Of a stretch of DNA of 48,352 bases, positions 9,301 to 46,755 are shown one piece after another. Source of the stretch: a virus. The position numbers and the translations under genes were made by a program. The notes under the pieces were generated by a model. The model had not been told where the DNA came from. It was given only the letters and a program-made list of their open reading frames with translations, and did not search any database. Location: IMG/VR virus record IMGVR_UViG_3300034198_015419, positions 1 to 48,352 of that record, one strand, 5' to 3'. Positions within the stretch are counted from its first letter, which is position 1. Each line of letters begins with the position of its first letter.

Positions 9301-9692
9301 TCTACGACACCCCAATCAATGTCAAAAACAAACTAGGTTTGGATAATTTCAATGTATTTTATCCAACCACGTATATGCCAGCACCTACCAAAGCTGATTA
9401 CAACTATGGGTTTTTGACTCGCTATTTTATTGGCAAACGAAATCAAAATAGCATCATAGAGACCAACGCCCGTGATTACAAAATGACAGATGGTTCGTTT
9501 TTTATCAAAGCTCAATGTGACTGGCAACTCACTGGTCCAAAAAATAACATATACACTGGAACGATGTTGCAAACATCTGGAGTTGAAGAATACAACAGAA
9601 TTCAAGTCAATGAATTGAGAATGAAATTGCCTGGTATTGAAAACATACTCACCAACCATCTGCAATTTTGGGCGGGACAATCGTCAGCTTGA
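9297..9692 (+). CDS. Small putative baseplate protein
   Basis: A 131-residue protein whose ATG overlaps the preceding stop (ATGA), so the two are probably translationally coupled. The sequence is rich in asparagine and tyrosine, has no signal peptide and no membrane segment, and shows no motif I recognise. Being the last gene of the tail block, it is most likely a minor structural component. The promoter of the next gene overlaps its stop codon. Confidence 0.5.
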   Translation: MIYDTPINVKNKLGLDNFNVFYPTTYMPAPTKADYNYGFLTRYFIGKRNQNSIIETNARDYKMTDGSFFIKAQCDWQLTGPKNNIYTGTMLQTSGVEEYNRIQVNELRMKLPGIENILTNHLQFWAGQSSA

Positions 9693-9716
9693 CATTGCAC
9701 CAAGTTGAGATATACT
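9689..9716 (+). promoter_or_regulatory. Sigma70-type promoter for polymerase-like gene
   Basis: TTGACA at 9689-9694, a 16-nt spacer, and TATACT at 9711-9716. It overlaps the stop of the preceding structural gene and separates an early-type gene from the tail operon. The expected transcript start is close to the GTG at 9723. Confidence 0.7.
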
Positions 9717-9722
9717 AAGGCT

Positions 9723-11027
9723 GTGATAGAACAGCAAAAAACATATCTCAAACTGATTTTACGTGATGGTCACATTCATCCATCACAAGATAAAGTTATT
9801 GCTGCGTTTGTGTATGAGTGTGACACACAACGTAAGTTGTATTACAACTTTGACCATCCCGATCTACCAAAGAATTCCACACTGAAAAAAGTGGTGCAAA
9901 GTCTGACAAACAAAAAAGTGTTTGTGCTCAACAAAAAAACGCACAAATACTTTGTATCTGGACTCAATTTGTACGACGCCAATCTGTTTCAGTTTTTCAA
10001 AGATGGTAATGTGTTTGAACCAAACAAACACAAGTTCTCAGAGACGTTGCAAATGACTCACCACCGCATCAACGGATCTGGAATCATAATTCCGTATGTT
10101 GTGCATCAAAAAGAGTTTGACTCTGAAATTGAGGTTGTAAAAGATTCTCTGAATGGCAAGACTGACACATATTGCTACAAATTTTTCAATGAGGTTGTGA
10201 GTGACACCTTATTTGAAGTGGAACGCAATGGTTTGCACGTAGACACTCCATTGTTCAAATCATATTTTCCAAATGCAAAAGTTGTGGGCGGTAGTGGCGA
10301 AGATGATACGGTGTATACCGAATATCATATCTACAATCCAACTGGACGACCCAGCAACAAGTTTGATAGTGTAAACTATGTTGCACTCAACAAAGCAGAT
10401 GGTTGTCGTGCAAGCTTTTCTTCTAGGTATGCAAATGGCAAACTGTTGATGGTAGACTTTACTGGGTTTCATCCGTATATTGTAGCCAACCTGATTGGTT
10501 ACAAGGTTCCAGATGATGAAACTGTGTACGAGCACTTGGCAAAGCAGTATTATGGTGTCGATACTGTGAGCAAAGATTTATTGTCAAAAGCAAAAAAGCT
10601 GACGATGGTAAATTTGTATGGGCAAATCTCAAAGCAGTATATTCACATTCCATACTTTGAAAAAACAGAAAAGCTAAAAGACAAGTATTGGGAAGTGTTT
10701 ACACAAAAAGGCTACGTCAAAACCCCAATCTATAAGCGCAAGATTACAGCCAATCACATTACTGATCCAAACAAAAACAAGTTGTTTGCATATATTATTC
10801 AAGCCACTGAAACTGAGTATGGATTGAATAGTTTGAGCAACTGCCTCAAATACAGTTTTGGCAAATCCATTAAACCAATTCTCTACATTTACGATAGTAT
10901 TCTGTTTGATATAGACGGCGATGTACCACAATCCGAGATTGACGACATAGTTAACATAATTCGAGGAAATAGGTTCAAAGTTAAGGTTTACGTGGGAAAT
11001 AATTACAATGATTTGAAATTAGTCTAA
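9723..11027 (+). CDS. Divergent family A DNA polymerase-like protein
   Basis: A protein of about 434 residues related to the polymerase domain of DNA polymerase I. Numbered from a possible TTG start at 9705, the landmarks are: EVERNGLHVD (171-180); NPTGRPSNKF (211-220), matching the TGRLSS block; motif A VDFTGFHP with D251; motif B SKAKKLTMVNLYG (294-306) with K297 and Y305; QATETEYG (366-373), matching QATAAD; and motif C YIYDSILF with D397. Both metal-binding aspartates are kept, but the motif B arginine is leucine and the motif C glutamate is serine. No 3'-5' or 5'-3' exonuclease motifs were found in the N-terminal 170 residues. The TTG at 9705 lies inside the promoter, so GTG at 9723 is preferred. 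Activity is uncertain: it could be a reduced polymerase, a primase-like enzyme or a structural derivative. Confidence 0.7.
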   Translation: MIEQQKTYLKLILRDGHIHPSQDKVIAAFVYECDTQRKLYYNFDHPDLPKNSTLKKVVQSLTNKKVFVLNKKTHKYFVSGLNLYDANLFQFFKDGNVFEPNKHKFSETLQMTHHRINGSGIIIPYVVHQKEFDSEIEVVKDSLNGKTDTYCYKFFNEVVSDTLFEVERNGLHVDTPLFKSYFPNAKVVGGSGEDDTVYTEYHIYNPTGRPSNKFDSVNYVALNKADGCRASFSSRYANGKLLMVDFTGFHPYIVANLIGYKVPDDETVYEHLAKQYYGVDTVSKDLLSKAKKLTMVNLYGQISKQYIHIPYFEKTEKLKDKYWEVFTQKGYVKTPIYKRKITANHITDPNKNKLFAYIIQATETEYGLNSLSNCLKYSFGKSIKPILYIYDSILFDIDGDVPQSEIDDIVNIIRGNRFKVKVYVGNNYNDLKLV

Positions 11028-11047: not shown

Positions 11048-12931
11048 ATGATGAAGTTTGAGTCTATTATAAACGACGCTTGCTGCGATGACCGTATCAA
11101 AGACGGCGTGTTACGAATTGATAATCCAGAGCATGTATTTGTGCTGCAAGAGTATCTGGAAAAGGCTGGTTACTCAATGGATTATATTGTGGAAAACACT
11201 GCTGAATTGTTTGAAGCAGGTAGATTCCCAGAGCGTCAAGCTTACAACAAAGATGGTATTTTGGTTACGTTCCCCAGCAAAGAATACCGTGATCGTGCCG
11301 TTGACAAAGGAACCCACTTTGCAGAAAATCCGAAAAAGAATGTGGGAACATTGTATGCACCCGGCGACTCTGGCGACTTGTCAACTGCCGACGTTTCCAA
11401 GGCAACTCAAGACTCGTCAGAAGAAGACAAACAAGATAAATCTGACACAGTATCTCTTGACAAAGAACTGAACAAAAAGATCGCTGGTGATGACAAGGTA
11501 GATAATCGTTCAACCAAGGAAAAGGTTCAAGATGCACAAGCGGTAACAGCAATGTTGGTATCTGATGTACCATTGGTCAACTATAGTGTTGATGAAGCTG
11601 TTCGATATGGGTTCTACAACAAAGGATTTGATTGGTACGACAATGACGGAAATTTCTTGGGTGAACAAATTTATGATGAATCAACTGGCCAATCAATGAT
11701 TCAAGCAGAACGTGCTCCAGCAAAATCGGCAGCTACTATAAAGACCAAATGCGATGCCAAAAAAATGGAGACATACATCAATCTTGAAATCAACAAAAAG
11801 AATTCAAAAGATGCAACTGCAAAAATTATTGCGGGAAAGTTGGTAGCAAATGATAAAATAAAACAATCTAAAGAGTTGGGTAACTTGTCTTGTGAAATTA
11901 CAAATCCAATTTTTGCTAACATAAAAGGCACGTCAAAAACTGATCTGATATTTTTCACTGACAAAAACAAAATTAAAGCCAGCCTAAAAGATCAAGGCGC
12001 ACAAGTTTGTAGTGCTCAAAATGCCGAAATCAATTCGGTGGTATCAGCAGTGTTGAAGGACACCAACGAATCTGAAAAAGTGATGAACGATATTTCTTCG
12101 TTTATTATGCAAGGCTTAGAGAAGAGCTTCTATGTACCTCTAAAAGATAGTGTCAAAGAGCAACTCAACAAAAGCCTAACATCAGCAATCAAAGGCGAAG
12201 CTTCTCCAGAAGAAATCAAACGACAAGCTGAACAAGTCAAAAAGATCATTCAACAAAACAAAGATTATGTTGAAAACGGCGAAATTCCAGTTGATGTCAC
12301 CCAAATCATGGCGACGTTGAACGGTTTGTTTGTTCAACAACCTCGCAGAACCATGATTATCGAAGAGCTTGCAACTGGTAAGCGCAGATTTGCAGTGCAA
12401 GGCAAGCCCGATTCTGTAGACTGTGTAGCTGATTACATGATGACGTGGAATTGCGCTGGTGATTATCATTTGTATCCAGTTTCCGAGTTCATTAAACAAA
12501 ACAATGGAAACATATCGTTTAGGTTTTCAAATCGTGGTGGCACCCGTGGTATTTCTATCAGAGGCGACATTAAAGCAAAAGCTAAAAAGTCTATGAAAGA
12601 AGCCCAGCTTGATGAAGGTGCTATGGACATCATCAAAAATTTGGGAGCGGACATAGCAAAGTATTTTTCCGATGTGTGGTCCAAAATTAAGTCATTGACC
12701 GGTGAATTGAAAACTTATTTCATGCAACTCTGGGAATATGTCAAGAGTGGATTGCAATCTATCTATGAAATGGTACTTCGATTTGGCAATTTGTTGCAAT
12801 CGTGGATAGCACAAGGTTGGCAAACGTTCACCAGCGTACTTGGATTTGAAGGTGAAGGCACCGGAGCATGGGTATGGCAAATGCCAACATCGTCTACAGC
12901 GGTCAATGAACCAGACACAACTGAAGTATGA
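11048..12931 (+). CDS. Unknown protein, probably virion-associated
   Basis: A 627-residue protein I do not recognise. The N-terminal 100 residues are compact and include RFPERQAYNKDGILVTFPS and a GTHF segment. Then comes a low-complexity acidic/serine stretch (about 105-165), a lysine-rich helical middle (about 230-440), a small domain with RRTMIIEELATGKRRF, and a C-terminal amphipathic part with many aromatic residues (about 525-600: KYFSDVW, YFMQLWEYV, LLQSWIAQGWQ). No signal peptide. The late-type element directly before it and the neighbouring tail genes suggest a structural or injected protein. It overlaps the next gene by 4 nt. Confidence 0.55.
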   Translation: MMKFESIINDACCDDRIKDGVLRIDNPEHVFVLQEYLEKAGYSMDYIVENTAELFEAGRFPERQAYNKDGILVTFPSKEYRDRAVDKGTHFAENPKKNVGTLYAPGDSGDLSTADVSKATQDSSEEDKQDKSDTVSLDKELNKKIAGDDKVDNRSTKEKVQDAQAVTAMLVSDVPLVNYSVDEAVRYGFYNKGFDWYDNDGNFLGEQIYDESTGQSMIQAERAPAKSAATIKTKCDAKKMETYINLEINKKNSKDATAKIIAGKLVANDKIKQSKELGNLSCEITNPIFANIKGTSKTDLIFFTDKNKIKASLKDQGAQVCSAQNAEINSVVSAVLKDTNESEKVMNDISSFIMQGLEKSFYVPLKDSVKEQLNKSLTSAIKGEASPEEIKRQAEQVKKIIQQNKDYVENGEIPVDVTQIMATLNGLFVQQPRRTMIIEELATGKRRFAVQGKPDSVDCVADYMMTWNCAGDYHLYPVSEFIKQNNGNISFRFSNRGGTRGISIRGDIKAKAKKSMKEAQLDEGAMDIIKNLGADIAKYFSDVWSKIKSLTGELKTYFMQLWEYVKSGLQSIYEMVLRFGNLLQSWIAQGWQTFTSVLGFEGEGTGAWVWQMPTSSTAVNEPDTTEV

Positions 12932-13326
12932 TGTACCAAAAACAATTGCTGTGTACATTCACAACCAGCGACAAATATCTTGAGGTTGTGAATGACATCA
13001 AGAAAGTGTACACACTCACCGACAACAAAATCTTTTTGTTCGTTAATGAAAAAAATCTACGGGAAGTGTATATGACCTTTAACGTGGTCAAAGATCCAAG
13101 CAGCAAGGTCAAGTATCCAAACACGATCAGCGTTCACAGAAAAAAGCAAACCAACACGTTGTATACACTCAACGCAATGAACAAACTCATTGCAGACGAG
13201 AACAATGGTGTGCTTGACAAGTCATTTCAATTGAACTGGGATTTATACAAAAATAGCATCATACTTGTATCAGATCCCGGTGTAAAAATAGTCGGATTAA
13301 AATTATTTTCCATCTTGTCTGCTTGA
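12928..13326 (+). CDS. Unknown conserved-looking phage protein
   Basis: A 132-residue protein starting in an ATGA overlap with the preceding gene, so translation is probably coupled. It is basic and globular-looking, with a central SVHRKKQTNTLYTLNAMNK and NNGVLDKSFQLNWDLYKN. I recall similar proteins as unannotated entries in T4-like phages of aquatic bacteria, but no function. It is not RegA by sequence. It ends 132 nt before gp32, separated by a probable promoter region. Confidence 0.55.
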   Translation: MMYQKQLLCTFTTSDKYLEVVNDIKKVYTLTDNKIFLFVNEKNLREVYMTFNVVKDPSSKVKYPNTISVHRKKQTNTLYTLNAMNKLIADENNGVLDKSFQLNWDLYKNSIILVSDPGVKIVGLKLFSILSA

Positions 13327-13458: not shown

Positions 13459-14310
13459 ATGGCATTAAACATTGCTCAACTAAAGAGTCGCCTTAACTCT
13501 CTTCAAAATCAAGGCTCCACAAACAAAAAGTCCGATCTTATCTGGAAGCCAAAGCCTGGCAAGCAAGTTGTACGTATTGTTCCGTACAAGTTCAATCCAG
13601 AAAATCCGTTCATCGAACTCAAGTTCCATTATAACATCAACGGCAAGACCTATCTGTCTCCAGACAGCTTTGGTCGCCCAGATCCTATCGTGGAATTTGC
13701 TAATCGTTTGAAGAAGACTGGTTCCAAGGAAGATTGGCAGATGGGTCGTAAGATGGAACCCAAGATGCGCACGTTTGCTCCTATCATCGTTCGTGGTGAA
13801 GAAGCTGAAGGTGTGAAGTTCTGGGGCTTCGGCAAGACTGTGTATCAAGAGATTGGTGCATTGATTCTTGACGGAGAATACGGTGATATTACCGACGTGT
13901 TGAACGGTCGGGATATTACTGTGGAATTCAAGACGGGCGAAGAGTCTGGCAAGAGTTTCCCAGTCACCACAATCCGTCCTCGTCCAAACGTTTCACCTGC
14001 GGTTGATCCAAAGAATGCAGCGTTGGTCGAGGGTCTGAAGAATCAGTCCAACATTTTGGATTTGTTCCCAGAACTTAGCTATGACGAACTCAAGGACGTT
14101 ATGGATAAGTGGCTCAACCCTGAACAAGCCGAGGAGGAAGCTGCTCCTACCACTGTCGCTGCTGACGCAGATGACGAGGTGAGTGTGCCTACGCCTGCTC
14201 CAGCAGCAAAGGCATCGGCAAAGCCAGCAGCATCTCCTAGTGCTGCAAAGGCTAAGGCTGGTGGATCTGAAGATGTTTCAAAAGCATTTGACGATCTGTT
14301 TAACTCCTAA
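13459..14310 (+). CDS. 32: Single-stranded DNA-binding protein gp32
   Basis: A 283-residue gp32 homologue, which coats single-stranded DNA at the replication fork and in recombination. The N-terminal basic arm carries the LKSRLNSLQ cooperative-binding type motif, followed by the OB-fold core (about 25-200) with SDLIWKPKPGKQVVRIVP. After an alanine/proline-rich linker (about 230-265) it ends in an acidic, aromatic tail, DVSKAFDDLFNS, like the partner-binding tail of T4 gp32. There is no cysteine anywhere, so the zinc site of T4 gp32 is absent; the corresponding part reads YLSPDSFGRPDP. It stands alone between a promoter-like gap and a strong hairpin, consistent with separate high expression, and uvsX follows. 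Confidence 0.88.
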   Translation: MALNIAQLKSRLNSLQNQGSTNKKSDLIWKPKPGKQVVRIVPYKFNPENPFIELKFHYNINGKTYLSPDSFGRPDPIVEFANRLKKTGSKEDWQMGRKMEPKMRTFAPIIVRGEEAEGVKFWGFGKTVYQEIGALILDGEYGDITDVLNGRDITVEFKTGEESGKSFPVTTIRPRPNVSPAVDPKNAALVEGLKNQSNILDLFPELSYDELKDVMDKWLNPEQAEEEAAPTTVAADADDEVSVPTPAPAAKASAKPAASPSAAKAKAGGSEDVSKAFDDLFNS

Positions 14311-14368: not shown

Positions 14369-15508
14369 ATGGCAAAAAAAGCAAACACACAAACATCTGA
14401 CCGAGACGACCTAATTGATCTACTTCAAGTTGAGCTTAACAAAGCCAACAAGAATGGTGGAAAGATTGCGTACACTCTCGACGAAAAAGATAATCCAACT
14501 GATATTACAGATTGGGTTAGCACGGGTTCATCAATTCTGGATCTTGCGATTAGCAACAGACCGTTTGGTGGATTGCCCGTAGGAAGAATGGTAGAGTTCA
14601 ACGGTCTTGAAGGTACTGGCAAAAGTTTGGTGTCTGCACACGTTGTGGCAGAAACTCAGAAAAAGGGTGGTGTAGCAGTGTTGATTGACACTGAAAACGC
14701 TGGTTCTCCTGAGTTTTGGGCTAGTTTGGGTGTGGATCTCAAAAAGATGTTGTACGTTCAGTGTGAAACTGTTGAAGACATCTTTGAACAAATGGAAAAA
14801 ATGATCACCATTGTTCGTAAAAGCAACAAAGATCGTATTCTTACAATCATTGTTGACTCTGTAGCCGCTGCTTCTACAAAGGCAGAGCTTGAGAGTGAGC
14901 ATGGTAAGGATGGTTATGCAACTGGTAAGAGTATCATTATCAGCAAGGCTATGCGAAAGATTACCAACATGATTGGCAAACAGAAGGTGTTGACCATCTT
15001 CACCAATCAATTGCGTCAGAATCTAAATGCTATGGCATTTGGTGACAAGTACGTGGTAAGTGGTGGTAAAGCTCTTGCGTATCATTGTAGCGTTCGTGTT
15101 CGTTTGAACAACACTGGTAAGCTCAAGAAGGGTGAGGAAATCATCGGTAATGAGTGTAAGGCAGTGGTGGTCAAGAACAGAATGGGTCCGCCTCAACGTC
15201 TTGCAAACTTCGATATCTATTTTGATAGCGGAATTGCAGACTATAGTAGCTGGGTTAAAGTTCTCAAGGACAATAATCTAATCAAACAAGGTGGTGCGTA
15301 CTACACCTATACCAAGGCTGACGGTAGTGAATGGAAGTTCCAATCCAAGGACTTTATTTCTACTCTACAATCCGATAACAAACTCAAGGAAGAAATTTAC
15401 TTGAAGATTTGTGATTCGGTGATTATGAAATATAAAGACCCAAACAGCAAGATTGTGGAAGATGCTGAGGTAGCAACGGACGAAGAAGACGCTGGTGCCG
15501 AAGAATAA
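14369..15508 (+). CDS. uvsX: RecA-like recombinase UvsX
   Basis: A 379-residue strand-exchange recombinase. Walker A is GLEGTGKS (79-86), closer to bacterial RecA than the T4 UvsX form. The LIDTEN segment (about 105-110) carries the likely catalytic glutamate E109, and Walker B is ILTIIVDS with D163. The DNA-binding loop and core end with SGGKALAYHCSVRVRL and the NRMGPP segment typical of UvsX. The C-terminal tail is acidic. UvsX forms filaments on gp32-coated DNA and starts recombination-dependent replication. It follows gp32 by 58 nt and precedes RNase H by 9 nt, so the three probably work and are expressed together. Confidence 0.9.
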   Translation: MAKKANTQTSDRDDLIDLLQVELNKANKNGGKIAYTLDEKDNPTDITDWVSTGSSILDLAISNRPFGGLPVGRMVEFNGLEGTGKSLVSAHVVAETQKKGGVAVLIDTENAGSPEFWASLGVDLKKMLYVQCETVEDIFEQMEKMITIVRKSNKDRILTIIVDSVAAASTKAELESEHGKDGYATGKSIIISKAMRKITNMIGKQKVLTIFTNQLRQNLNAMAFGDKYVVSGGKALAYHCSVRVRLNNTGKLKKGEEIIGNECKAVVVKNRMGPPQRLANFDIYFDSGIADYSSWVKVLKDNNLIKQGGAYYTYTKADGSEWKFQSKDFISTLQSDNKLKEEIYLKICDSVIMKYKDPNSKIVEDAEVATDEEDAGAEE

Positions 15509-15517
15509 TAAACAATC

Positions 15518-16585
15518 ATGAGTGGCTTCACTTCAAACGAAAAGAAGCGACTGTTCTCGCTGTTTGAGAACGTAAAGGATGAAATCGGAGTTGACGGTCT
15601 CAAAAAAACCGTCAACTCCGACGTACTCCTAGTCGATGGCTTAAATACTTTCATTCGCTCATTTATGGCTGTGCCATCTATGAATGATGATGGAATGCAC
15701 ACTGGAGGCATCGCTGGCTTTCTTAAAAGCATTGGTTATGCAATCAAACTGCTGGGACCAACCCGTGTAGTAGTTGTATTCGATGGAACTGGCGGTAGTC
15801 AGAAACGTCGCAAGATTTATCCAGACTACAAGAAGGGTCGTAGAACTCGTATTCGTTTCAATCGTACATACGAAGAAATGAGTGGGTCCGATCTTGAGGA
15901 AAAAAATCTCAAGTTGGAATTGCTTCGGTTGATCAACTATCTCGACGTGTTGCCGTTGACTACAATGTCAATAGACAATATTGAAGCAGATGATACCATT
16001 GCATATCTGGCTGAACAAACTTTCAAGGACAGCAATGTCACTATCATGTCATCTGACAAGGACTTTTTGCAGCTTGCCAGTGACAAAATCAAAATTTGGA
16101 GCCCAACCAAAAAGAAAATCTTTGGGTGCAAGGAAATTATTGATGAGTATGGAGTGAGTTGTAGTAACTTTGTACTGTATCGTACTATGGAAGGTGATGA
16201 TAGCGACAATATTCCAGGCATTGAAGGCGCAGGTCTCAAGCGTATTTTGCAAGCTTATCCATTTCTTGCAGATGAACGTGAAAGCAACCTTCAAGAAATC
16301 TACAACTATTCAGAAAATCACAAAGGAAAATACAAGCTTTATGAGCGTGTATTGGCTGATAAGCTGACAATGGAAAGAAACTTTGAATTGATGCAACTCA
16401 AAAGCACACAAATTCAAAGCTTTACTCAACTGCGCATTGAAGAAATCGTGCAGAAACCAGTGCCCCGAATCAACAAACTAGCCTTTAGCAAGTTGATCAA
16501 CGAAGACAAAATGTGGAGTAATCTACCAAATTACAACGTTTGGTTGAGCGAAACATGGGGTAAAATCAACAGCTTTGTGCTGTAA
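15518..16585 (+). CDS. rnh: RNase H, FEN-1-type 5' nuclease
   Basis: A 355-residue flap endonuclease-family protein that removes RNA primers and 5' flaps during lagging-strand synthesis. Visible metal-binding motifs are LLVDGLNTFIRSF (D40), VVVVFDGTGGSQKRRKIYP, IEADDTIAYLAE, SSDKDFLQL and GDDSDNIPGIEGAG. The order and spacing match T4 RNase H. About 35 residues precede the first catalytic aspartate, more than usual, and this extension is encoded by a perfect 13-bp hairpin. No start codon lies between the hairpin and LLVDG, so the extension is probably translated. It lies between uvsX and the gp41 promoter. Confidence 0.88.
   Translation: MSGFTSNEKKRLFSLFENVKDEIGVDGLKKTVNSDVLLVDGLNTFIRSFMAVPSMNDDGMHTGGIAGFLKSIGYAIKLLGPTRVVVVFDGTGGSQKRRKIYPDYKKGRRTRIRFNRTYEEMSGSDLEEKNLKLELLRLINYLDVLPLTTMSIDNIEADDTIAYLAEQTFKDSNVTIMSSDKDFLQLASDKIKIWSPTKKKIFGCKEIIDEYGVSCSNFVLYRTMEGDDSDNIPGIEGAGLKRILQAYPFLADERESNLQEIYNYSENHKGKYKLYERVLADKLTMERNFELMQLKSTQIQSFTQLRIEEIVQKPVPRINKLAFSKLINEDKMWSNLPNYNVWLSETWGKINSFVL
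15586..15620 (+). promoter_or_regulatory. Perfect 13-bp hairpin inside the RNase H coding region
   Basis: CGGAGTTGACGGT (15586-15598) pairs exactly with 15608-15620; the 9-nt loop is A-rich. It encodes residues 23-35 of RNase H, just before the first catalytic aspartate. Candidate translational or transcriptional brake; it has no following T run. Confidence 0.6.
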
Positions 16586-16670: not shown

Positions 16671-18059
16671 ATGAGCGAAAAACATATTATTGATAACCTA
16701 CAAAAGTTCGGTAGTGAGTTCCAGATCAAGTGTATATCTGGATTGGTCAGTGATCGTCCGTTTATGGAACGATTGGCAGATATCGTAGAGGCAGAATTTT
16801 TCCAAAGTGATGCCCACAAGTGGATCGTCAAGGAAAGTGTAAAATACTTTCTTGATTACAAAGATCTACCTACACTTAATGTGTTCAAGGTAAAGCTGGA
16901 AACCGTCAACAGCGACGTGCTAAAAGCCAGCATCGTCAACAACCTCAAGGTCATTTATCAGAAGATGAATGATGGTGACTTGGTGTTTATCAAGGAACAA
17001 TTCTTGGAGTTTTGCAAAAACCAAAAGCTCAAGAATGCAATCACCGAAGCTGTTGATTTGCTGGGTACTGGTGAGTATGAAAAGATCAAGACCAAGGTTG
17101 ACGAAGCCCTCAAGGCTGGTATGGAAAGAAATTTGGGTCATAGCTACGACGAAGAAGTTGACAAGCGTATGACCTTGATGGCTCGTAACGCTGTACCAAC
17201 CAAATGGGAAGTTATCGACACTATCATGGATGGTGGTCTTGGACCTGGTGAGCTTGGGGTTATTACAGCTTGCGCTGGTAGTGGTAAAAGCTGGGTGTTG
17301 AGTAAGATTGGTGCAGAAGCCATGAAGCAAGGCAGAAATGTTTTGCACTTCACACTTGAGTTGAATGAAAACTACGTGGGTCTTCGTTATGACTCATGCT
17401 TCACGGGAATTGATTTCCAAAACATTCGTAACAACGTGGAAGTTGTTAAGCAAAAGATTGCTGAAGTTCCAGGCAAACTAAAGATCAAATATTTTCCAAT
17501 CAAAACAGTATCGGCACACAGTCTCAAGAGTCATTGTGAACGTATTCAAATGTTGGGAACAAAAATCGACATGATTATTGTGGACTACGCAGACATTCTG
17601 CGTCCTATCCAAAGTGATCGTAACAGCAACAGCTACAGCGAAGCTGGTGGTATCTACGAAGAGTTGCGTAGTATTGCTGGTGAATTGCAAGTTCCAGTTT
17701 GGACTGCATCACAAAGCAATCGTGCAGCTATGGAAGAAGATATCATTCAGGCAAACAACATTGCTGATAGTTATCGCAAAATTATGACTGCTGACTTTGT
17801 TATGAGCTTGAGCCGCAAGGTGCAAGACAAGCAAAGCCACACCGCACGATTCCACATCATCAAGAATCGTTTCGGACCAGACGGTTTGACATTCCCAGCA
17901 AAAATGAATGCTGGTTGTGGACATATCGAATTGTACAGTGAAAACAGCCGTGAGGGTGTTGCACTTCAAAATGAGATGATGAACGGAGAAAATCAAGTAA
18001 AAAGTGTGCTTAAAAACAAGTGGAACGCTCACAACGTTGATGACGATGACACTGAATAA
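16671..18059 (+). CDS. 41: Replicative DNA helicase gp41
   Basis: A 462-residue DnaB-type hexameric helicase. The N-terminal helical domain covers about 1-150. The RecA-like core has Walker A in CAGSGKSW (about 202-208), the FTLELNENYVGLRYD segment with the catalytic glutamate, Walker B MIIVDYADIL (about 300), and a glutamine sensor in PVWTASQSNRA. The core ends with HIIKNRFGPDGLTFP. It unwinds DNA 5'-3' ahead of gp43 and recruits primase. AAGAGGAAAA before the ATG is a good ribosome-binding site. A gp61-type primase is not in this window. Confidence 0.88.
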   Translation: MSEKHIIDNLQKFGSEFQIKCISGLVSDRPFMERLADIVEAEFFQSDAHKWIVKESVKYFLDYKDLPTLNVFKVKLETVNSDVLKASIVNNLKVIYQKMNDGDLVFIKEQFLEFCKNQKLKNAITEAVDLLGTGEYEKIKTKVDEALKAGMERNLGHSYDEEVDKRMTLMARNAVPTKWEVIDTIMDGGLGPGELGVITACAGSGKSWVLSKIGAEAMKQGRNVLHFTLELNENYVGLRYDSCFTGIDFQNIRNNVEVVKQKIAEVPGKLKIKYFPIKTVSAHSLKSHCERIQMLGTKIDMIIVDYADILRPIQSDRNSNSYSEAGGIYEELRSIAGELQVPVWTASQSNRAAMEEDIIQANNIADSYRKIMTADFVMSLSRKVQDKQSHTARFHIIKNRFGPDGLTFPAKMNAGCGHIELYSENSREGVALQNEMMNGENQVKSVLKNKWNAHNVDDDDTE

Positions 18060-18072
18060 TGCATATTTATGA

Positions 18073-18123
18073 TGACAAAAAATCTTCATAAATTATTTGT
18101 CAAAAAGTTTTGATTGTGACAAA
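18073..18123 (+). repeat. Three copies of TGACAAA/TTTGTCA upstream of class II RNR
   Basis: In the 118-nt gap 18060-18177, TGACAAA occurs at 18073-18079 and 18117-18123, and its reverse complement TTTGTCA at 18096-18102, spaced by 21-23 nt (about two helical turns). This could be an operator. The gap also has TTGATT...TAAATT, a weak promoter. No NrdR box or cobalamin riboswitch was recognised. Confidence 0.3.
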
Positions 18124-18177
18124 TTCTTTACGATAAATTCTATAGTTATCTACTACCCAAAACTACAGACAAACAAT

Positions 18178-20166
18178 ATGAGTAACAACACAAATATTCT
18201 TTCAAAGGAATTCGTAAATAAATACAAAAGCAAACAACCCAAGTGGGGTTTTAACGGATTGGGATATATCGTCTATAAGCGAACATATGCCCGATTGAAG
18301 GAAGATGGCAACACCGAAGAGTGGCATGAAACAATTGAACGCTGTATCAATGGTGCTCAAAAGATTGGTGCTGAGTATACAAAGGAAGAAGCTGAAAAGC
18401 TTTTTGACTATGTGTTTAACCTCAAGTGCAATTTTGCTGGTCGCATGTTGTGGCAACTTGGCACATCCACAGTGGACCGTTTTGGCGCAAATAGTTTGCT
18501 GAACTGCTGGTTTACTAGTATCAACGAGCCAAAGGCATTTTTGTTTTTGTTTGAAAACTTGATGCTCGGTGGAGGTGTAGGATTCAGCATTCGTCGTGAA
18601 GACGTGATGGAGCTTCCAAAGATTCGCAAGGATGTTACCATCACTCATCAAGCAACCAAAGATGCTGACTTTATCATACCCGATACCCGTGAAGGTTGGG
18701 TCAAGTTGTTGGAAAACGTGTTGAACGCTTTCTACGTCACTGGCAAGAGCTTCACTTACTCGACCATTCTTATTCGTGGTGCTGGTGAAAAGATCAACGG
18801 ATTTGGTGGCAAGGCAAGCGGTCCTTCAATTTTGATTGAGGGTATGACCAAGATTACCAACATCTTCAAAGGTCGTGAAGGTAAGAAGCTTCGCAGTATT
18901 GATGCCTTGGACATCTGCAACATTATTGGTAGCATCGTAGTTGCTGGTAACGTTCGTCGTAGTGCTGAAATTGCTCTGGGTGATCCAGACGACATTCTGT
19001 ACATGCGAGCAAAGAACTGGGGCAGTGGCAACATTCCTAACTGGCGTGGTATGAGCAACAACACTTTATACGTCGATGATTATAGTCATTTGATGGAAGA
19101 GTTTTGGACCAATGGTTATGAGATCAATGCCGAGACTGGATATGCAAGCGGTGAGCCTTATGGGTTCTTCAATTTGCCTTTGAGCCAAAAGTATGGTCGT
19201 CTCAAAGACGGTCCTATGAAGGACAGCAAGTTGTATCCAGCCGATACTGACAACGTAGTTGGCACAAATCCATGTGGTGAAATCAGCTTGAGTAACTATG
19301 AGTGTTGTAATCTTTGCGAACTGTATTTGAACAACATTCAAAGCGAAGAAGAACTCAATGAGTGTGCTCGCTTGTTGTACAAGGCACAAAAGGCTATTGC
19401 AGCATTGCCATTCATTCACGAAGAAACCAACAAGATTGTTCACAAGAATATGCGACTTGGTATGGGTGTGACTGGTATTTGTCAATCATTCGACAAGATC
19501 GGTTGGTTGGACAAGTGCTATGTCAATCTTCGTAAGTTTGACAAGGAGTGGAGCAAGCAGCGTGGATGGCCTGAGAGCATCAAGCTGACCACTGTAAAGC
19601 CAAGTGGCACTTTGAGTCTGCTCGGTGGTGCTACCCCAGGCGTGCATCCAGCGTTTGCAAAGCATTATCTGCGCACGGTTCGTATGAGCAGCAGCGACAA
19701 GTTGGTGCAAATTTGCAAAGACCTTGGATATCACACTGAATTCTTGGTCAACTTTGATGGGTCTGAAAACTATGACACTGTTGTGGTTTACTTCCCATGC
19801 GAAACTCCAGAAGGTGCATTGTTGGCAAAGGATACTTCTTTGATCGAACAATTGAACCTTGTGAAGCAGATCCAAGAAATCTGGAGTGACAACGCTGTTA
19901 GCGTCACTGCATACTACAAACCAGAGGAATTGAATGACCTCAAGGAATGGTTGAAGGAAAATTACAAGAACAGTGTTAAGAGTGTCAGCTTTTTGCTGCA
20001 CAAGGAACACGGATTCAAACAAGCTCCTTATCAAGAAATTGACGAGGAAACTTATCTCAAAGCCAAATCCAAGGTTAAGCCACTGTCTGATGTAGTCCTT
20101 AATGCTGGAACTGGTGATCTAATCCAAGGCATTGAGTGTGAAGGTGGAGCTTGCCCAATTAGATAA
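18178..20166 (+). CDS. nrdJ: Adenosylcobalamin-dependent (class II) ribonucleotide reductase, monomeric type
   Basis: A 662-residue enzyme that makes deoxyribonucleotides from ribonucleotides using a B12-generated thiyl radical. All cysteines of the monomeric Lactobacillus leichmannii type are placed as expected: C110 in LLNCWF, radical C366 in NPCGEISL, C377 eleven residues later, and the C-terminal shuttle pair C654 and C659 in CEGGACPIR. GNVRRSAE and KPSGTLSLLGGATPG are further family motifs. The ATG at 18178 is chosen because the upstream TTG extension (18097) has no family-like sequence. T4 itself has class I NrdAB; here no radical-generating small subunit is needed. A strong hairpin follows, so the gene is its own unit. 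Confidence 0.92.
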   Translation: MSNNTNILSKEFVNKYKSKQPKWGFNGLGYIVYKRTYARLKEDGNTEEWHETIERCINGAQKIGAEYTKEEAEKLFDYVFNLKCNFAGRMLWQLGTSTVDRFGANSLLNCWFTSINEPKAFLFLFENLMLGGGVGFSIRREDVMELPKIRKDVTITHQATKDADFIIPDTREGWVKLLENVLNAFYVTGKSFTYSTILIRGAGEKINGFGGKASGPSILIEGMTKITNIFKGREGKKLRSIDALDICNIIGSIVVAGNVRRSAEIALGDPDDILYMRAKNWGSGNIPNWRGMSNNTLYVDDYSHLMEEFWTNGYEINAETGYASGEPYGFFNLPLSQKYGRLKDGPMKDSKLYPADTDNVVGTNPCGEISLSNYECCNLCELYLNNIQSEEELNECARLLYKAQKAIAALPFIHEETNKIVHKNMRLGMGVTGICQSFDKIGWLDKCYVNLRKFDKEWSKQRGWPESIKLTTVKPSGTLSLLGGATPGVHPAFAKHYLRTVRMSSSDKLVQICKDLGYHTEFLVNFDGSENYDTVVVYFPCETPEGALLAKDTSLIEQLNLVKQIQEIWSDNAVSVTAYYKPEELNDLKEWLKENYKNSVKSVSFLLHKEHGFKQAPYQEIDEETYLKAKSKVKPLSDVVLNAGTGDLIQGIECEGGACPIR

Positions 20167-25747: not shown

Positions 25748-25775
25748 TTGACATTGTTATAAATCATGCTACACT
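25748..25775 (+). promoter_or_regulatory. Sigma70 promoter for UvdE
   Basis: TTGACA (25748-25753), 16-nt spacer, TACACT (25770-25775) with extended -10 TGC. Only 8 nt separate the -10 from the ATG at 25784, so the transcript should be nearly leaderless. Confidence 0.7.
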
Positions 25776-25783
25776 GTAGTGGT

Positions 25784-26719
25784 ATGATTCGAAAAAGTCT
25801 TTGTTGTATATCACTGGAGCTACAAAAGCGTGGTTATAAAGCCAATACTATGACCAAAACTAGGTTTTTGGTATTGGAAAAAAAGCAATCGTTGCAAATT
25901 CTTGGTCAACGAGTTGCCAATAACCTCAATGTAGTTCTGGAAACCATTAAATATTGTAATTCTCATGGTTGGAACTATCGCATCAGCAGTGATATTTTCC
26001 CTCTGGCTACATTACCAGAAGCCAATTTAAGCTATGATGTACTTCCCAATAAAACTGAGATTGTGCAACTTTATAGCAATATTGATAAAGCCATCAAACT
26101 TAGCAATATTCGTTGCAGCACTCATCCTGATCAATTTGTAGTTCCAGCCAGTGCAAACCCGGTTGTAGCTGCCAAGTCTGTGATTGAATTGGTACATCAC
26201 GCAGACATGATGGACAGAATGGGGCTTCCCCGCTCCTACGATGCCCCTATAAACATTCACATGAACTGTTTCAAAGGATCACTAGCTGACATATCAAAAC
26301 GCTTTATAGAGGCGTATAACACGTTTCCCGAGGGTGTTAAAAGCCGACTTGTATTGGAGAATGAAGACAAACCCAATAGTTGGAACGTTGAGCAGCTTTA
26401 TGAATATGTTTATCAACGCACGGGTATACCAATTACCTATGATAATTTACATCATAAATGCAATCCAGGCAAGTTGACGGCTAAAAAGGCTGTGGAATTG
26501 GCTATGTCTACGTGGGGCAAACACCGTCCGTTGTTTCATTTTAGTGAAGGCATTGGTACTACTGGTGCTGCGCAACGTACTCATGCATTGCAACCAACGC
26601 ATGTTCCTGTGGAATATGCCAATATTGACGTTGACTTGGATTTTGAGTTCAAAAACAAAGATCTAGCAATTTTGCATTTTGAGAACACTCTCGAAAATAA
26701 AATAAGTGCAAGTCGTTGA
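25784..26719 (+). CDS. uvdE: UV damage endonuclease UvdE/UvsE
   Basis: A 311-residue TIM-barrel endonuclease that nicks DNA 5' of UV photoproducts, starting an excision repair path independent of UvrABC. Family motifs are WNYRISSDIFP, RCSTHPDQFVVP, INIHMNCF, LVLENEDK, YDNLHHKCNPG and PLFHFSEG; the histidines, aspartates and glutamates in them bind the metal ions. The start at 25784 is preferred over the ATG at 25766, which overlaps the -10 element. The N-terminal GYKANTMTKTRF piece also fits the family. T4 instead uses the small DenV glycosylase, so this is a different answer to sunlight damage and suits an aquatic habitat. Confidence 0.88.
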   Translation: MIRKSLCCISLELQKRGYKANTMTKTRFLVLEKKQSLQILGQRVANNLNVVLETIKYCNSHGWNYRISSDIFPLATLPEANLSYDVLPNKTEIVQLYSNIDKAIKLSNIRCSTHPDQFVVPASANPVVAAKSVIELVHHADMMDRMGLPRSYDAPINIHMNCFKGSLADISKRFIEAYNTFPEGVKSRLVLENEDKPNSWNVEQLYEYVYQRTGIPITYDNLHHKCNPGKLTAKKAVELAMSTWGKHRPLFHFSEGIGTTGAAQRTHALQPTHVPVEYANIDVDLDFEFKNKDLAILHFENTLENKISASR

Positions 26720-28808: not shown

Positions 28809-29185
28809 AGCAATTTTTTAATCAATAGATAAATAGCAAAGCTGATACAATAGTTGATAGGAAAAACAAATATTGCGTAATTCCAAGGCCACACAATAAA
28901 TGTATGAGTAACAGTCAACCAAAATGGTAAACAGATATTGCAGCTAATCAATTTGGTAAATACAGAAGGATACGCAGCGTACAGAAAATCTGGATATGAT
29001 GCCATTACGTCCACTTCAAGTTTGTATTTTGTGTATTCGTTCATCTTCAACCAGTTGTACACAAAGTTGACACTGAATAGCTTGGCGATTTTAGCAATCG
29101 TGGTAACAATGTCGCTGTGAAACCACAATGTCAGTGTAAACACAACCCAAAACACCAACCCAAAGTTTAGATAGAAAATATTCAT
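28805..29185 (-). CDS. Small multi-pass membrane protein
   Basis: A 126-residue hydrophobic protein with probably three membrane segments: about 5-23 (FGLVFWVVFTLTLW), about 80-100 and about 105-124. The middle contains a short acidic region and a CNIC motif. The ATG at 29185 overlaps the stop of the glycosyltransferase gene (ATGA). In a glycan operon, small membrane proteins may anchor transferases or move lipid-linked sugars, but no flippase motif is visible. Confidence 0.58.
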   Translation of the reverse strand: MNIFYLNFGLVFWVVFTLTLWFHSDIVTTIAKIAKLFSVNFVYNWLKMNEYTKYKLEVDVMASYPDFLYAAYPSVFTKLISCNICLPFWLTVTHTFIVWPWNYAIFVFPINYCISFAIYLLIKKLL

Positions 29186-30384
29186 AGTAGCCATTTTTTG
29201 TATTCTGCGTTATCAACGTTAATCAAATTTTTCTTGCAATCAACCAAGCGATTGATTTGTAGCTTGAAAATGTCGTACTCAAGATTTCCTACTTGTCCAC
29301 TGTCTTCCAACATCAACTGTAGCATGTTGAAAAACTCAAAGCTTTGATTGCTTATTTTGTTTGCATCAAACGTTACTACAACATCGTTAAGTTTTGGTTC
29401 GTCATATTGCTTGAGCTTTTTCTTCAAGTCAAACTTGGTGTTCTTTTGTTCTGCTGCAATATAGCGAGTATAGTCAACGTCAGTATACAAAGCGTCACAC
29501 CAAGGCTCCAGCAAAGCTACACGATATTCATCGCAGTTCAATGCAACAAACCCAATGTTGTATCTGTTTGGTACAACTGGCTTCATAAAGTCGTTGTGCT
29601 TTACAAAATGACCCCACTTGCGAATAAAGTTTCTGGAACTCTTGACGTTTTGTTGTTGCCATTCTTCACTGTCCTTGCCAATAGCAGTGAGCGTGGGATT
29701 GAATCTGCTGCCTCGACACGTCAAATGATATACACAAGCTTCCCAGATTTGAATAAACTTGTAATCGTTTAGTAAGAATCTATTGAAAATGTCGCTATCT
29801 TCTTTGCTGGTAGGAGCAAACAGCAAGTCGTGACCACCAATCTTGAGAAAGTCTTCTTTGTAAATAGCCCATGGAGCAAACACACCTTCTGTGGTTTTGT
29901 CTTTGCGGTTAACTTTGGTGTTCAACAACCACTTTTCAAATTCATCTTTTTTGAATGTCTCTGGCTCACTACCAAAATCTTGGGTAATCTTTTCTGGTCC
30001 ACCTGGGTGCAAAGGTGGTTCAATTCTAGTGAGAGAAACTACAGTCTGAGGTTTAAGGTATTTTTCAATCAACAAGTCTGCATTTCTGCTGATGTACATG
30101 TCGGCGTGATAAATCATGATCACGTCGTTTGTAGCAGCCTGCTCTACCAAAATATTGTAGAGTTCAGTCATACCCTTTCTGGCTGGTCCCTCATTACGAA
30201 CCGCTTTGAAGTGAGGATCTTGTTTGTGCATTTCTTCACACCATTCCCACGTACCATCGCTGCTGGCATCGTCAGCTACGCAAATTTCGTGGTTTGTATG
30301 GCTAAGGTTGCTGCGAAGTGCGGCATAACACCACTTCAAATACTTTAGATTGTTTCTGGATGGAATGATAAAACTGATATTCAT
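29182..30384 (-). CDS. Family 2 glycosyltransferase
   Basis: A 400-residue protein with an N-terminal GT-A domain. FIIPSRNNLKYL opens the nucleotide-sugar fold, CVADDASSDGTWEW has the typical DDxSxDGT motif, and MIYHADMYIS (about residue 90) takes the place of the metal-binding DxD. The C-terminal 150 residues are not recognised and may bind the acceptor or the next enzyme. It lies 8 nt after the preceding gene in the operon. Donor and acceptor sugars cannot be told. Confidence 0.8.
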   Translation of the reverse strand: MNISFIIPSRNNLKYLKWCYAALRSNLSHTNHEICVADDASSDGTWEWCEEMHKQDPHFKAVRNEGPARKGMTELYNILVEQAATNDVIMIYHADMYISRNADLLIEKYLKPQTVVSLTRIEPPLHPGGPEKITQDFGSEPETFKKDEFEKWLLNTKVNRKDKTTEGVFAPWAIYKEDFLKIGGHDLLFAPTSKEDSDIFNRFLLNDYKFIQIWEACVYHLTCRGSRFNPTLTAIGKDSEEWQQQNVKSSRNFIRKWGHFVKHNDFMKPVVPNRYNIGFVALNCDEYRVALLEPWCDALYTDVDYTRYIAAEQKNTKFDLKKKLKQYDEPKLNDVVVTFDANKISNQSFEFFNMLQLMLEDSGQVGNLEYDIFKLQINRLVDCKKNLINVDNAEYKKWLL

Positions 30385-30392
30385 GTCTATAA

Positions 30393-31067
30393 CTAGATTG
30401 TTATATTTTCAACTTGCAACTGTTGCAGCAAACTTTTTAACTGATCCACTTTTTTGATGTTGTGTCGTTGTGATATAATATGAGTGGCGAAATACTTTTT
30501 TGCAATCTGACCGTCTTGTTCAAATGTTGGAAACGTATAAATATTCACCAAATTCTGCTTTTGCAATTGGCTTGAAAAAATAACGTCAAACTCAAATGGA
30601 TCATGATCTTCTGGAAGTGGTAGAAGATTGACTATAGACTGATAATGTATGGCGTTTAGACCACCTCGTAAATACTTACCCCAACCTTGAATACCAACAA
30701 ACAGCCGTTGATCATAATTGAATAGGTGCCGCATTATTGCTTGAAACTCTTGGCTACGATAATGTACAAGATCAGTATCAATTTTGCAAAAAACTGAGTT
30801 TTTGTATGTGTCTTGATTTGCTATCAAATATTCACGAAACAAGTTGAACTTGCGAGTCATTTTGTTTTGATCGCTTTCAATGTATATTGTGTGTGGTCCC
30901 AATATAGTGCGCAAAAAATCGGCGTATGGTTGATCGTCTTTTGTGCCAGACACCAACACAAAATACTGATATTTATGTGTCAACTCAATAAAGTTGGTAT
31001 TGATGCTTGTGTAGTAATCCATACAAGCATCCAAAAACGTGTAATAAACAACATGACCCGACGGCAT
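30393..31067 (-). CDS. Probable glycosyltransferase
   Basis: A 224-residue protein with a possible GT-A fold: VFCKIDTDLVHYRS (about 98-111) holds a DxD-like IDTD, and GLNAIHYQSI and FEFDVIFSS follow. The start at 31067 is chosen because it comes just after the stop of the preceding gene; the longer form from 31106 would overlap it by 35 nt. Not assigned to a family. Alternative: a hexosyltransferase-like protein without activity. Confidence 0.58.
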   Translation of the reverse strand: MPSGHVVYYTFLDACMDYYTSINTNFIELTHKYQYFVLVSGTKDDQPYADFLRTILGPHTIYIESDQNKMTRKFNLFREYLIANQDTYKNSVFCKIDTDLVHYRSQEFQAIMRHLFNYDQRLFVGIQGWGKYLRGGLNAIHYQSIVNLLPLPEDHDPFEFDVIFSSQLQKQNLVNIYTFPTFEQDGQIAKKYFATHIISQRHNIKKVDQLKSLLQQLQVENITI

Positions 31068-31071
31068 AATT

Positions 31072-31644
31072 CTAAATTTTTTGATACAAATAGGCGTAAC
31101 GTCCAAATTTGTCTCGGCTTATATCAGCAATATCAATTTGTTTCAAATCTTTTGCGAGGTGTGCAATATTTTTACGATAACCTTGTTTGTGGACATCATC
31201 CAACATGATATACCCGCCTGTGTTAAGCTTTGATAATATAGTTGCAAGAGACGATTGTCTGGTGGACATATTTCCCAGATCGTGATAAATAAAATCGTAG
31301 TTGTAAGAAATCGTTCTAAAGTTTTTCCAAAGAATCAAGTTTTTTGTTGACAACTTGTGCTGCAACAAAAACTGTTCTGTTTTTTTGATCCATTTATCGT
31401 TATCTTCAACAGATACATGAATGTTTGGTGCAACAGTTTCCTTTTGCATGACGTAACTTGATAATCCAGATCCAGTGTCAAGTCGATTTACTACGTTGCC
31501 ATATCTAAGAATATATACAACTATTGACGCCTGTTCTAATGATAAACACATGTCCTCGGTTGATACTGTAGAGCAATACAAAATATAGTCGTTTTTGTAT
31601 TCATCTTGTATATCCAAAAGCTTTTTATTGTCAAACTGTATCAT
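31072..31644 (-). CDS. SAM-dependent methyltransferase
   Basis: A 190-residue class I methyltransferase-like protein. VNRLDTGSGLSSYV (about 52-65) is the SAM-binding loop, DFIYHDLGNMS (about 115) the motif II region, and LNTGGYIMLDDVH (about 143-155) the post-III segment. Such small methyltransferases cap or modify sugars. The ATG overlaps the stop of the preceding transferase gene, and an ATTTATA element lies 3 nt before it (31648-31655). Confidence 0.68.
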   Translation of the reverse strand: MIQFDNKKLLDIQDEYKNDYILYCSTVSTEDMCLSLEQASIVVYILRYGNVVNRLDTGSGLSSYVMQKETVAPNIHVSVEDNDKWIKKTEQFLLQHKLSTKNLILWKNFRTISYNYDFIYHDLGNMSTRQSSLATILSKLNTGGYIMLDDVHKQGYRKNIAHLAKDLKQIDIADISRDKFGRYAYLYQKI

Positions 31645-43567: not shown

Positions 43568-43579
43568 TCATTGCATAGT

Positions 43580-46297
43580 ATGTACCAGAACATTTTTTTC
43601 GAGAGATCAACCAATACTTGCCATCTGTGGGACGACAAAAAGGGTTACACCAGTTTTGCGTTTCGTCCTTATGCTTATCGCAAGCGTAACGGTGGAAAAT
43701 ACAAAAGTATGTTCGGTGATGAACTGGAGAAAATCTACAGTTTCAATCCCCGTGATCCATCATTGTTTGAAAGCGATGTTCCTATTGATACTCGCATTCT
43801 AATTGATGCGTATGAAGACAGCGATGAACCGTCTGAAGGTCATCGTGTGTTGTTTCTTGATATTGAGGTCAGCACAGAAGGCGGATTTGCCAAGGATGAT
43901 GAAGCTGACAAAGAAATCACGGCTATCGCAATTTATGACGCACTGACCAAGAAATACACTGCGTTTATTTTGGATCGCAACGGTCTGATGGAGAATTTTG
44001 ATAGTGATGAAAAAGCAATTCTAAGCTATCGTACCGAAGAAGACATGTTGATGGCGTTTCTTTCTAAATGGGAAGAAATTCAGCCTACTATTACAACTGG
44101 TTGGAACAGTAACCAGTTCGACATGCCTTATATTTACCGTCGTTTGAAAAATGTAGTTGGCGCACAAAATGCCAAACGATTGAGTCCTATTGGTATTTCT
44201 TATATCAATGATTGGAACAAGCGTTTGGTTATTGGTGGTGTAACGCATTTGGACTATATGAAGGTGTATGAAAAGCTCATGATCAAAAAGGAAGCGAGCT
44301 ATTCATTGAATGCGATTGGTAAAAAGCAAGTTGGTATGGAAAAGATTACCTATCGTGGTAGTCTGGATACTCTGTACAAAGAAGACATCAAGAAATACGT
44401 TGAGTACAACTTAAACGACGTACAAATCATGGTGGCTTTGGACGACAAGCTGAAACTCATTGAACTGGTCCGAGCTATTTGTCACAAAGGTCACGTACCT
44501 TATGAGTGTTATGATCGTAGCTCACGATTCATTGAGGGTGCTATTTTGATGTATCTTCGCCGCAACGGTCGTGTTGCAAAGAACAAGCCCGTTGATGGGC
44601 GTGAGGAATACGAAAACCAACAAGAAAACGATGAAGAAGGATTTGAGGGTGCTTATGTTAAAGAGCCTGTGCCTGGTCGTTATGAGTGGGTGTTTGATTT
44701 GGACCTCACATCAATGTATCCGAATATCGTCATCAGTCTTAACATCAGTCCTGAGACTAAGGTAGGTGTTATTGATAGAATTGAGTTTGATGATGTTCAT
44801 ATTGTTGAACGCAAAAAGGAACTGACCGACGATTGGGAAAACTTGAGCGACAAAACCAAGAAAGAAACGCCATTGGAGCAATACATCGAACAGCGTTTGT
44901 ACAACTACAACGCTCGTATGTTTGCTCAAGGAAAAATCGCCAAGTATCATTTGGGATCTGCATGTTATACACATGAATCGTTTATGAATCTTCTGACTCA
45001 AAGCAATTTGAGTGTGTCGGGCAACGGAGTTCTTTATCAAAAAGAAGTGGCTGGAGTGCTACCAAACATTCTGGTCAAGTGGTTCGATGAACGCAAAGAA
45101 ATGCGTGACTTGGCAAAGAAGTATGCTAAAGAAAAGAATTGGGAACAGTACGAGTTCTACGAACAGCGTCAAAAGGTGCAGAAGGTTCTTCTCAACTCCA
45201 TCTATGGTGTATTGGGTTTGGCGATCTTCCGTTTTTATGACAAGGATAATGCGAGTGCTGTTACAATAACTGGTCAAGACATTATCAAAACAACTGGTAA
45301 GGCAATCAATGAATATTTCAAGAAAGCACTGAATGTCAATGATGGTAACTATGTTATCTATACCGACACAGACTCTTGTTTTGCAAGTGCGTTGCCAATC
45401 ATTCAGAAAAACACGCCTGACATTGATTTGAATGATGAAACACAAATGACAGACGCTATTATGAAGGTGACTACCGAAGTGCAAACATTCGTAAACAAGT
45501 TTTATGATAAGATGGCGTTGCGGTTGTTCAATATTGAGACTCATAGGTTTGAAGCAAAGCAAGAGGTTATTGCCAAGACAAGCTTTTGGTTGACCAAGAA
45601 ACGCTATGCTCAGTTCATCATTAACGTGGCTGGTTTGGATGTAAAAACCATGGAAGTCACACACGAAAACAGAAACGAATTCGTGTTTGATGAAAAGGGT
45701 AATCATATTGCAAAACTGGAAGTTAAGGGTATTGACGTTGTTAAAAGCTCATTCCCAGTATATTTCCGTACTTTCATGGAAAAGTTCTTACAAGACATTT
45801 TGCTAAAAACCGAAAAAGAAGTTATCGATGGTAATATCTTGAGTATGTTGGATGATTTGGGCAACACAGACATTATTTCCGTTGCCAAAAACACCAGTGT
45901 CAAATTCAAGAGCAAAGATGGTAAGAATGATTTCAATCCCAAAACTCGTCATCCGTTCAAGTATGTCAAGGGAACCACAGCGCAAGCAAAAGCAGCACTT
46001 GCATACAACGATCTTTTGAAGTATTATGGTATTGAAACCATGGTGCAGCCAATTTTCCATGGTCAAAAGATCAAGTGGGTGTATTTGAAAAAGAATGATC
46101 TTGGATTGGATTGTGTGGCGTTGAAAGCTGATGGTACTGATCCAGATCAAGTTTTGGACTTTATCAACAAATATGTGGATCGTACTGCGATGTATGAACA
46201 AGAGTTGCAAGGCAAGCTGTCGGACTTTTACAACATCTTGAAATGGACGTATCCAAATGGTACAGACGCCACGGTTGATGAATTTTTCGGATTCTAA
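43580..46297 (+). CDS. 43: DNA polymerase gp43, family B
   Basis: A 905-residue replicative polymerase. 3'-5' exonuclease motifs: FLDIEV (about 93-98), WNSNQFDMPYIYRR, and YNLNDVQIM. Polymerase motifs: A, DLTSMYPNIVISLNISPET (about 375); B, KVLLNSIYGVLG (about 536); C, YTDTDSC (about 593). All catalytic acids are present. Length matches T4 gp43 (898). The ATG at 43580 is used; an in-frame TTG 9 nt upstream is less likely. The C-terminus DATVDEFFGF resembles the clamp-binding tail of T4 gp43. It works with gp45 and gp44, encoded just downstream. Confidence 0.95.
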   Translation: MYQNIFFERSTNTCHLWDDKKGYTSFAFRPYAYRKRNGGKYKSMFGDELEKIYSFNPRDPSLFESDVPIDTRILIDAYEDSDEPSEGHRVLFLDIEVSTEGGFAKDDEADKEITAIAIYDALTKKYTAFILDRNGLMENFDSDEKAILSYRTEEDMLMAFLSKWEEIQPTITTGWNSNQFDMPYIYRRLKNVVGAQNAKRLSPIGISYINDWNKRLVIGGVTHLDYMKVYEKLMIKKEASYSLNAIGKKQVGMEKITYRGSLDTLYKEDIKKYVEYNLNDVQIMVALDDKLKLIELVRAICHKGHVPYECYDRSSRFIEGAILMYLRRNGRVAKNKPVDGREEYENQQENDEEGFEGAYVKEPVPGRYEWVFDLDLTSMYPNIVISLNISPETKVGVIDRIEFDDVHIVERKKELTDDWENLSDKTKKETPLEQYIEQRLYNYNARMFAQGKIAKYHLGSACYTHESFMNLLTQSNLSVSGNGVLYQKEVAGVLPNILVKWFDERKEMRDLAKKYAKEKNWEQYEFYEQRQKVQKVLLNSIYGVLGLAIFRFYDKDNASAVTITGQDIIKTTGKAINEYFKKALNVNDGNYVIYTDTDSCFASALPIIQKNTPDIDLNDETQMTDAIMKVTTEVQTFVNKFYDKMALRLFNIETHRFEAKQEVIAKTSFWLTKKRYAQFIINVAGLDVKTMEVTHENRNEFVFDEKGNHIAKLEVKGIDVVKSSFPVYFRTFMEKFLQDILLKTEKEVIDGNILSMLDDLGNTDIISVAKNTSVKFKSKDGKNDFNPKTRHPFKYVKGTTAQAKAALAYNDLLKYYGIETMVQPIFHGQKIKWVYLKKNDLGLDCVALKADGTDPDQVLDFINKYVDRTAMYEQELQGKLSDFYNILKWTYPNGTDATVDEFFGF

Positions 46298-46723: not shown

Positions 46724-46747
46724 CATCCAAACAAAAACTGTTATACT
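46720..46747 (+). promoter_or_regulatory. Strong sigma70 promoter for the sliding clamp
   Basis: TTGACA (46720-46725), 16-nt spacer, TATACT (46742-46747). The ATG at 46756 follows the -10 by only 8 nt, the same distance as at uvdE, so the mRNA should be leaderless or nearly so. Confidence 0.8.
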
Positions 46748-46755
46748 AGAGAACC

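Follow-up and report, generated by a model that had tools for sequence, protein, structure and literature searches.

A divergent family A DNA polymerase with an inactivated exonuclease and no thumb, encoded alongside gp43 in T4-like phages

Why would a T4-like phage that already encodes a complete replicative DNA polymerase carry a second, divergent one? The question is raised by a 48,352-nucleotide stretch of viral DNA (IMG/VR record IMGVR_UViG_3300034198_015419, positions 1 to 48,352; referred to here as the window), in which the initial annotation recognised a family A polymerase-like protein in addition to family B gp43. The gp43 gene is complete as annotated: its 908-residue product matches phrog_262 (E=2e-169) and carries the exonuclease motif DIE and the motif C sequence DTDS. 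Next to this normal replicative polymerase the phage has a small extra one of family A, thumbless and with a dead proofreading part. The two genes, and the promoter of the smaller one, are located as follows.

9689..9716, + strand: early sigma70-type promoter (-35 TTGACA at 9689-9694, -10 TATACT at 9711-9716), conserved in relatives
9723..11027, + strand: family A DNA polymerase of the divPolA1 type, 434 residues from a GTG start (profiles, AlphaFold2, homology to immuto gene 1)
43571..46297, + strand: family B replicative DNA polymerase gp43, 908 aa (phrog_262)

The open reading frame 9705-11027 is real, but its start had to be moved from the TTG at 9705 to the GTG at 9723. The TTG falls in the spacer that separates the -35 from the -10 box; the GTG is conserved and aligns with the GTG used by most close relatives, two of which (L011 and L046) show a TAG in frame immediately 5' of it. 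All residue numbers are therefore lower by six than those given initially.

Membership of family A is visible only via family profiles and relatives, not from the window protein alone, which has no meaningful match in Pfam, PHROG, NCBIfam or, by phmmer, the PDB; a search of its own genome with PF00476 likewise returned nothing meaningful. Relatives found by tblastn include proteins of the Flavobacterium phages (immuto), Microcystis phage Mel-JY01 and a 484-kb phage, and at least 564 viral contigs in IMG/VR encode one. The immuto homologue, annotated as 'DNA polymerase family A', exceeds the Pfam cut-off, and immuto gene 1 matches the window protein with a tblastn E-value of 5e-35 and ~31% identity across 278 aligned residues. 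Residue conservation was assessed in an alignment of 67 sequences with identity down to 28%; 37 of these relatives match PF00476 (Pfam DNA_pol_A, best 2.4e-14) and 39 match PHROG 17 'DNA polymerase' (best 4.5e-20), while the family profile matches the Klenow fragment with E=2e-8. When the family profile was aligned by hhalign with the single immuto full-length PolA, the motif A region alone was aligned, with low probability. The polymerase assignment made from the bare sequence, by no means a trivial one, is upheld by these profile matches.

Structure prediction leads to the same family. The AlphaFold2 model of the 434-residue protein (pLDDT 94.8, pTM 0.91) has a palm and fingers fold: VIA-align superposes residues 4-432 on residues 313-876 of the Bst Pol I large fragment (Z 28.4, 402 aligned) and ranks Bst and Taq Pol I at the top, and Foldseek returns Pol theta (3.6e-18) and Klenow (3e-17), with Pol nu also among the best matches. 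The elements that are degenerate, missing or catalytic in this fold map to the following positions.

9732..10007, + strand: remnant of a 3'-5' exonuclease-like domain (residues ~4-95) in which the catalytic acids are replaced (AlphaFold2, VIA, alignment)
10263..10307, + strand: thumb deletion site, residues ~181-195 (HMMER two-piece alignment, AlphaFold2)
10455..10472, + strand: motif A, D245 (=D705) to H250 (=E710, the steric gate) (67-sequence alignment)
10593..10622, + strand: motif B, K291 (=K758), Y299 (=Y766) and G300, with L287 at the R754 position (alignment)
10890..10898, + strand: motif C, Y390-D391-S392 (=H881-D882-E883) (alignment)

Contrary to the first impression that an exonuclease domain is lacking altogether, its fold is retained in residues ~4-95, where the model follows the beta-beta-beta-alpha-beta-alpha-beta order and the VIA alignment begins at Bst 312-313; what has gone is the catalytic acids, since the positions of D355, E357 and D424, matched by eye, are acidic in none of the 67 relatives. 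The thumb is missing. The HMMER alignment to Klenow breaks into one piece at E. coli residues 523-558 and a second that starts at ~651, so that ~90 thumb residues (E. coli ~558-651) have no counterpart, and helices are absent from the model between residues 182 and 227. With the thumb lost, the grip on the primer-template should be poor.

The sequence blocks named by the initial annotation (TGRPS, the motif A Asp, the motif B Lys and Tyr, QATETEYG and the motif C Asp) are all present and in order, and the motif B Arg and motif C Glu are absent, as it stated. T207, R209, D245, K291, G300, Q360 (the Q849 equivalent) and D391 are invariant in all 67 sequences and Y299 in 66; aligned to Pol I, D245 and D391 are the putative metal-binding pair. 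The steric-gate position of E710 is His (H250) without exception, the R754 position keeps its Arg in three sequences and has lost it in 64, and the HDE of motif C has become Tyr-Asp followed by Ser (56), Ala (10) or Cys (1). The missing Arg and the steric-gate His are both expected to alter dNTP binding. Since the changes at E710, R754 and E883 are common to the whole subfamily, they mark a divergent branch of family A; it is important to point out that these residues and the thumb are usual in the family, not strictly defining. Given the invariant metal Asp residues, motif B Lys and Q849 equivalent, together with dN/dS values of 0.03-0.19 in the closer pairs, the protein is very probably an active polymerase. 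The loss of the motif C Glu, which had been read as a sign of lost catalysis, carries less weight than implied and is not decisive against activity: the PolA of Thermus phage Tt72 is an active enzyme with a natural Asp-Ser in motif C, in which the S616A substitution leaves 76% of activity and Asp mutants drop to 4% (PMC9324360).

The promoter proposed at 9689 is confirmed, and relatives share it. Its -35 box overlaps the stop codon of the upstream gene and its -10 box ends six bases 5' of the GTG; the arrangement TTGAC-N16-19-TAnnnT, with its end 5-10 bases (most often 6) 5' of the start codon, recurs in 20 of the 23 close relatives and 14 of the 44 distant ones, where base-shuffling predicts ~0.05 per group, and at none of seven neighbouring genes. 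Its own early promoter behind tail genes makes the gene early amid surroundings that are probably late, and in this respect, as in family A fold, exonuclease deficiency and coexistence with gp43, profile, structure and promoter evidence agree with what was first proposed. A -10 box so near the start codon would place the transcript start at or next to that codon, and its position suggests a leaderless early mRNA for the polymerase. Three sigma70-like promoters in the window (9689-9725, 25748-25786 and 46720-46758) have -10 boxes ending 6-8 bases 5' of a start codon, which suggests leaderless early mRNAs at each. TATTTAT boxes, of which the window holds 17 against 9 expected, are found shortly 5' of start codons at 3188, 11037, 20219, 25324 and 42574; they are probably late promoters, some with very short leaders.

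Downstream of the polymerase gene lies a replication module.

11048..12931, + strand: 627-aa gene (open reading frame), with a TATTTAT late-promoter-like box at 11037
12928..13326, + strand: ORF12928, a conserved 132-aa protein and constant downstream partner (locus comparison)
13459..14310, + strand: gp32-like single-strand DNA binding protein
14369..15508, + strand: UvsX recombinase
15518..16585, + strand: stand-alone Pol I-type 5'-3' exonuclease, a flap nuclease (NF004397)
16671..18059, + strand: gp41-like replicative helicase

The 5' nuclease matches the N-terminal domain of Pol I (NF004397, E=5e-41). Within the reach of each locus, the order tail genes, polymerase, (627-aa gene), ORF12928, gp32, uvsX, 5' nuclease, gp41 is kept in ~130 loci; the 627-aa gene adjoins the polymerase in closer relatives and was not found beside it in deeper ones. 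Such synteny speaks for co-regulation, not for a shared reaction. A B12-dependent (class II) ribonucleotide reductase gene (18097-20166) lies beside this module, and further along the minus strand encodes glycosyltransferase-like and UDP-glucose dehydrogenase genes (29185-34070).

The association with ORF12928 is tight. When loci were fetched by ORF12928 alone, which avoids selection on the polymerase itself, the polymerase was found upstream in 42 of the 42 loci with at least 5 kb of upstream sequence, and in a set of 50,697 phage records ORF12928 occurs in exactly the six with strong polymerase matches. Co-inheritance within one phage clade could also explain this co-occurrence. The small protein contains an RKK...YT.NA.N...W motif and is modelled by AlphaFold2 with a pLDDT of 90; it matches no family model, and Foldseek and VIA yield weak ACT/ferredoxin-like matches alone (E >= 0.15, Z <= 6.5), and these point to no function. 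It is a possible partner of the polymerase.

A comparison with known systems places the window protein in divPolA1, a group described from 14 phages, immuto among them, in which the exonuclease is inactivated, the thumb truncated and a set of downstream replication genes conserved, and for which DNA polymerase activity was predicted (Yutin et al. 2024, Virol J 21:200, PMC11348598). Homology to immuto gene 1, an exonuclease fold with its catalytic Asp replaced at the D355 and D424 positions, a short thumb, an intact palm, downstream replication genes and a separate regular polymerase are all found here, and the size is alike; the protein differs from its immuto counterpart in sequence (~31% identity) and in having gp43, of family B, as partner replicase. 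Relative to the Klenow and Bst large fragments, it shares the fold, the motif order and the equivalents of D705, K758, Y766, Q849 and D882, but it has 434 rather than ~600 residues, is thumbless and exonuclease-dead, and has E710 replaced by His, R754 lost and E883 replaced by Ser. Like divPolA2 of the Rheinheimera barbaviruses, it is a second divergent PolA beside a PolB and has no canonical thumb, but where the window protein keeps an exonuclease-like domain and a fixed neighbourhood, divPolA2 has an unrelated domain at its N-terminus and varies in its gene neighbours. Tt72 PolA shares the Asp-Ser of motif C, whereas it is full-length, proofreading and active, with thumb and steric-gate Glu present (PMC9324360). 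A literature search on thumbless polymerases and on T4-like phages with an additional polymerase of family A gave nothing useful besides the divPolA1 paper; new relative to that paper (PMC11348598) are the at least 564 contigs, the invariant His with the lost Arg, the way the promoter is placed and the constant presence of ORF12928 as a neighbour.

The regular polymerase belongs to family A, B or C depending on the divPolA1 phage (PMC11348598), so that divPolA1 persists through changes of replicase. In immuto a full-length PolA takes the place of gp43, and the complete genome of Mel-JY01 encodes both gp43 and the extra polymerase. Among 27 further records searched, 16 contain gp43, and the remainder are mostly fragments. 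In the 484-kb phage (LR756508.1, behind L051) the gp43 match at 259363-267278 is broken into three parts, located in open frames of 1022 and 625 aa: either a split gene or an intein-like insertion; in the contig behind L090 (G011) one in-frame TAG within the gp43 match at 67319-69850 points to recoding, a frameshift or an error.

What, then, does the small polymerase do? It could be a translesion enzyme whose open, proofreading-deficient active site copies past damage in the manner of Pol nu or Pol theta, both of which are among its best Foldseek matches; proofreading is absent, and loss of the thumb exposes the active site. The Foldseek ranking is, however, nearly tied with Klenow, VIA prefers Bst and Taq Pol I, and a protein shorter than Klenow has no room for the additional insertions known from Pol theta and Pol nu. 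UvdE is encoded in the window and was initially taken as a hint of lesion bypass, but it lies ~15 kb from the polymerase gene, further than most of the fetched flanks extend; the argument was set aside and has little weight, and translesion synthesis seems unlikely. A ribonucleotide-using enzyme that makes or extends RNA primers would suit the invariant H250 at what in Pol I is the ribonucleotide gate (E710), the lost R754 and the absent thumb. The Asp-Ser of motif C is as in T7-type RNA polymerases. RNA polymerase activity has, moreover, been proposed for divPolA2, another divergent PolA (PMC11348598). On the other hand, DNA polymerases head the structural matches, the exchange of Glu for His brings no clear reduction in size, and a primase role is not needed where a DnaG-type primase is encoded, as in six long records (each of the three phage records of the annotated collection, plus three other long contigs); primer making is distinctly improbable.

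That the fold is catalytically dead and serves the replication complex as a scaffold or by binding DNA ends has the lost motif B Arg and motif C Glu and the missing thumb in its favour, and is more doubtful still, because both metal Asp residues and the equivalents of K758 and Q849 are invariant down to 28% identity and a motif C Ser is compatible with activity in Tt72 PolA (PMC9324360). A bolder proposal is a two-part polymerase in which ORF12928 would replace the missing thumb or clamp the template, for a specialised reaction on gp32/UvsX-coated DNA with possibly relaxed sugar selection; it is about as improbable as primer making, but if true it would mean a reaction that no characterised phage polymerase carries out.

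The preferred reading is accessory short synthesis by an active, exonuclease-dead, thumb-truncated divPolA1 polymerase made early, an explanation that, taken whole, has roughly even chances. Here gp43 with its clamp and clamp loader would copy the genome, and the small polymerase would perform short, distributive synthesis at gaps or recombination intermediates early in infection, filling gaps behind the separately encoded Pol I-type 5' nuclease on gp32/UvsX-coated DNA. Polymerase and 5' nuclease together might then act as a 'split DNA polymerase I' in Okazaki-fragment maturation and repair. The specific assignment to gap filling or recombination is more tentative, though with gp43 and a DnaG primase encoded alongside it is the most economical guess.

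That hundreds of environmental T4-like phages keep a second polymerase beside a complete gp43, with strong purifying selection acting on it, means that the T4 replication model misses a step in this large group. The fixed active-site changes and the lost thumb make sugar selection, processivity and the partner protein accessible to direct biochemistry with one purified protein.
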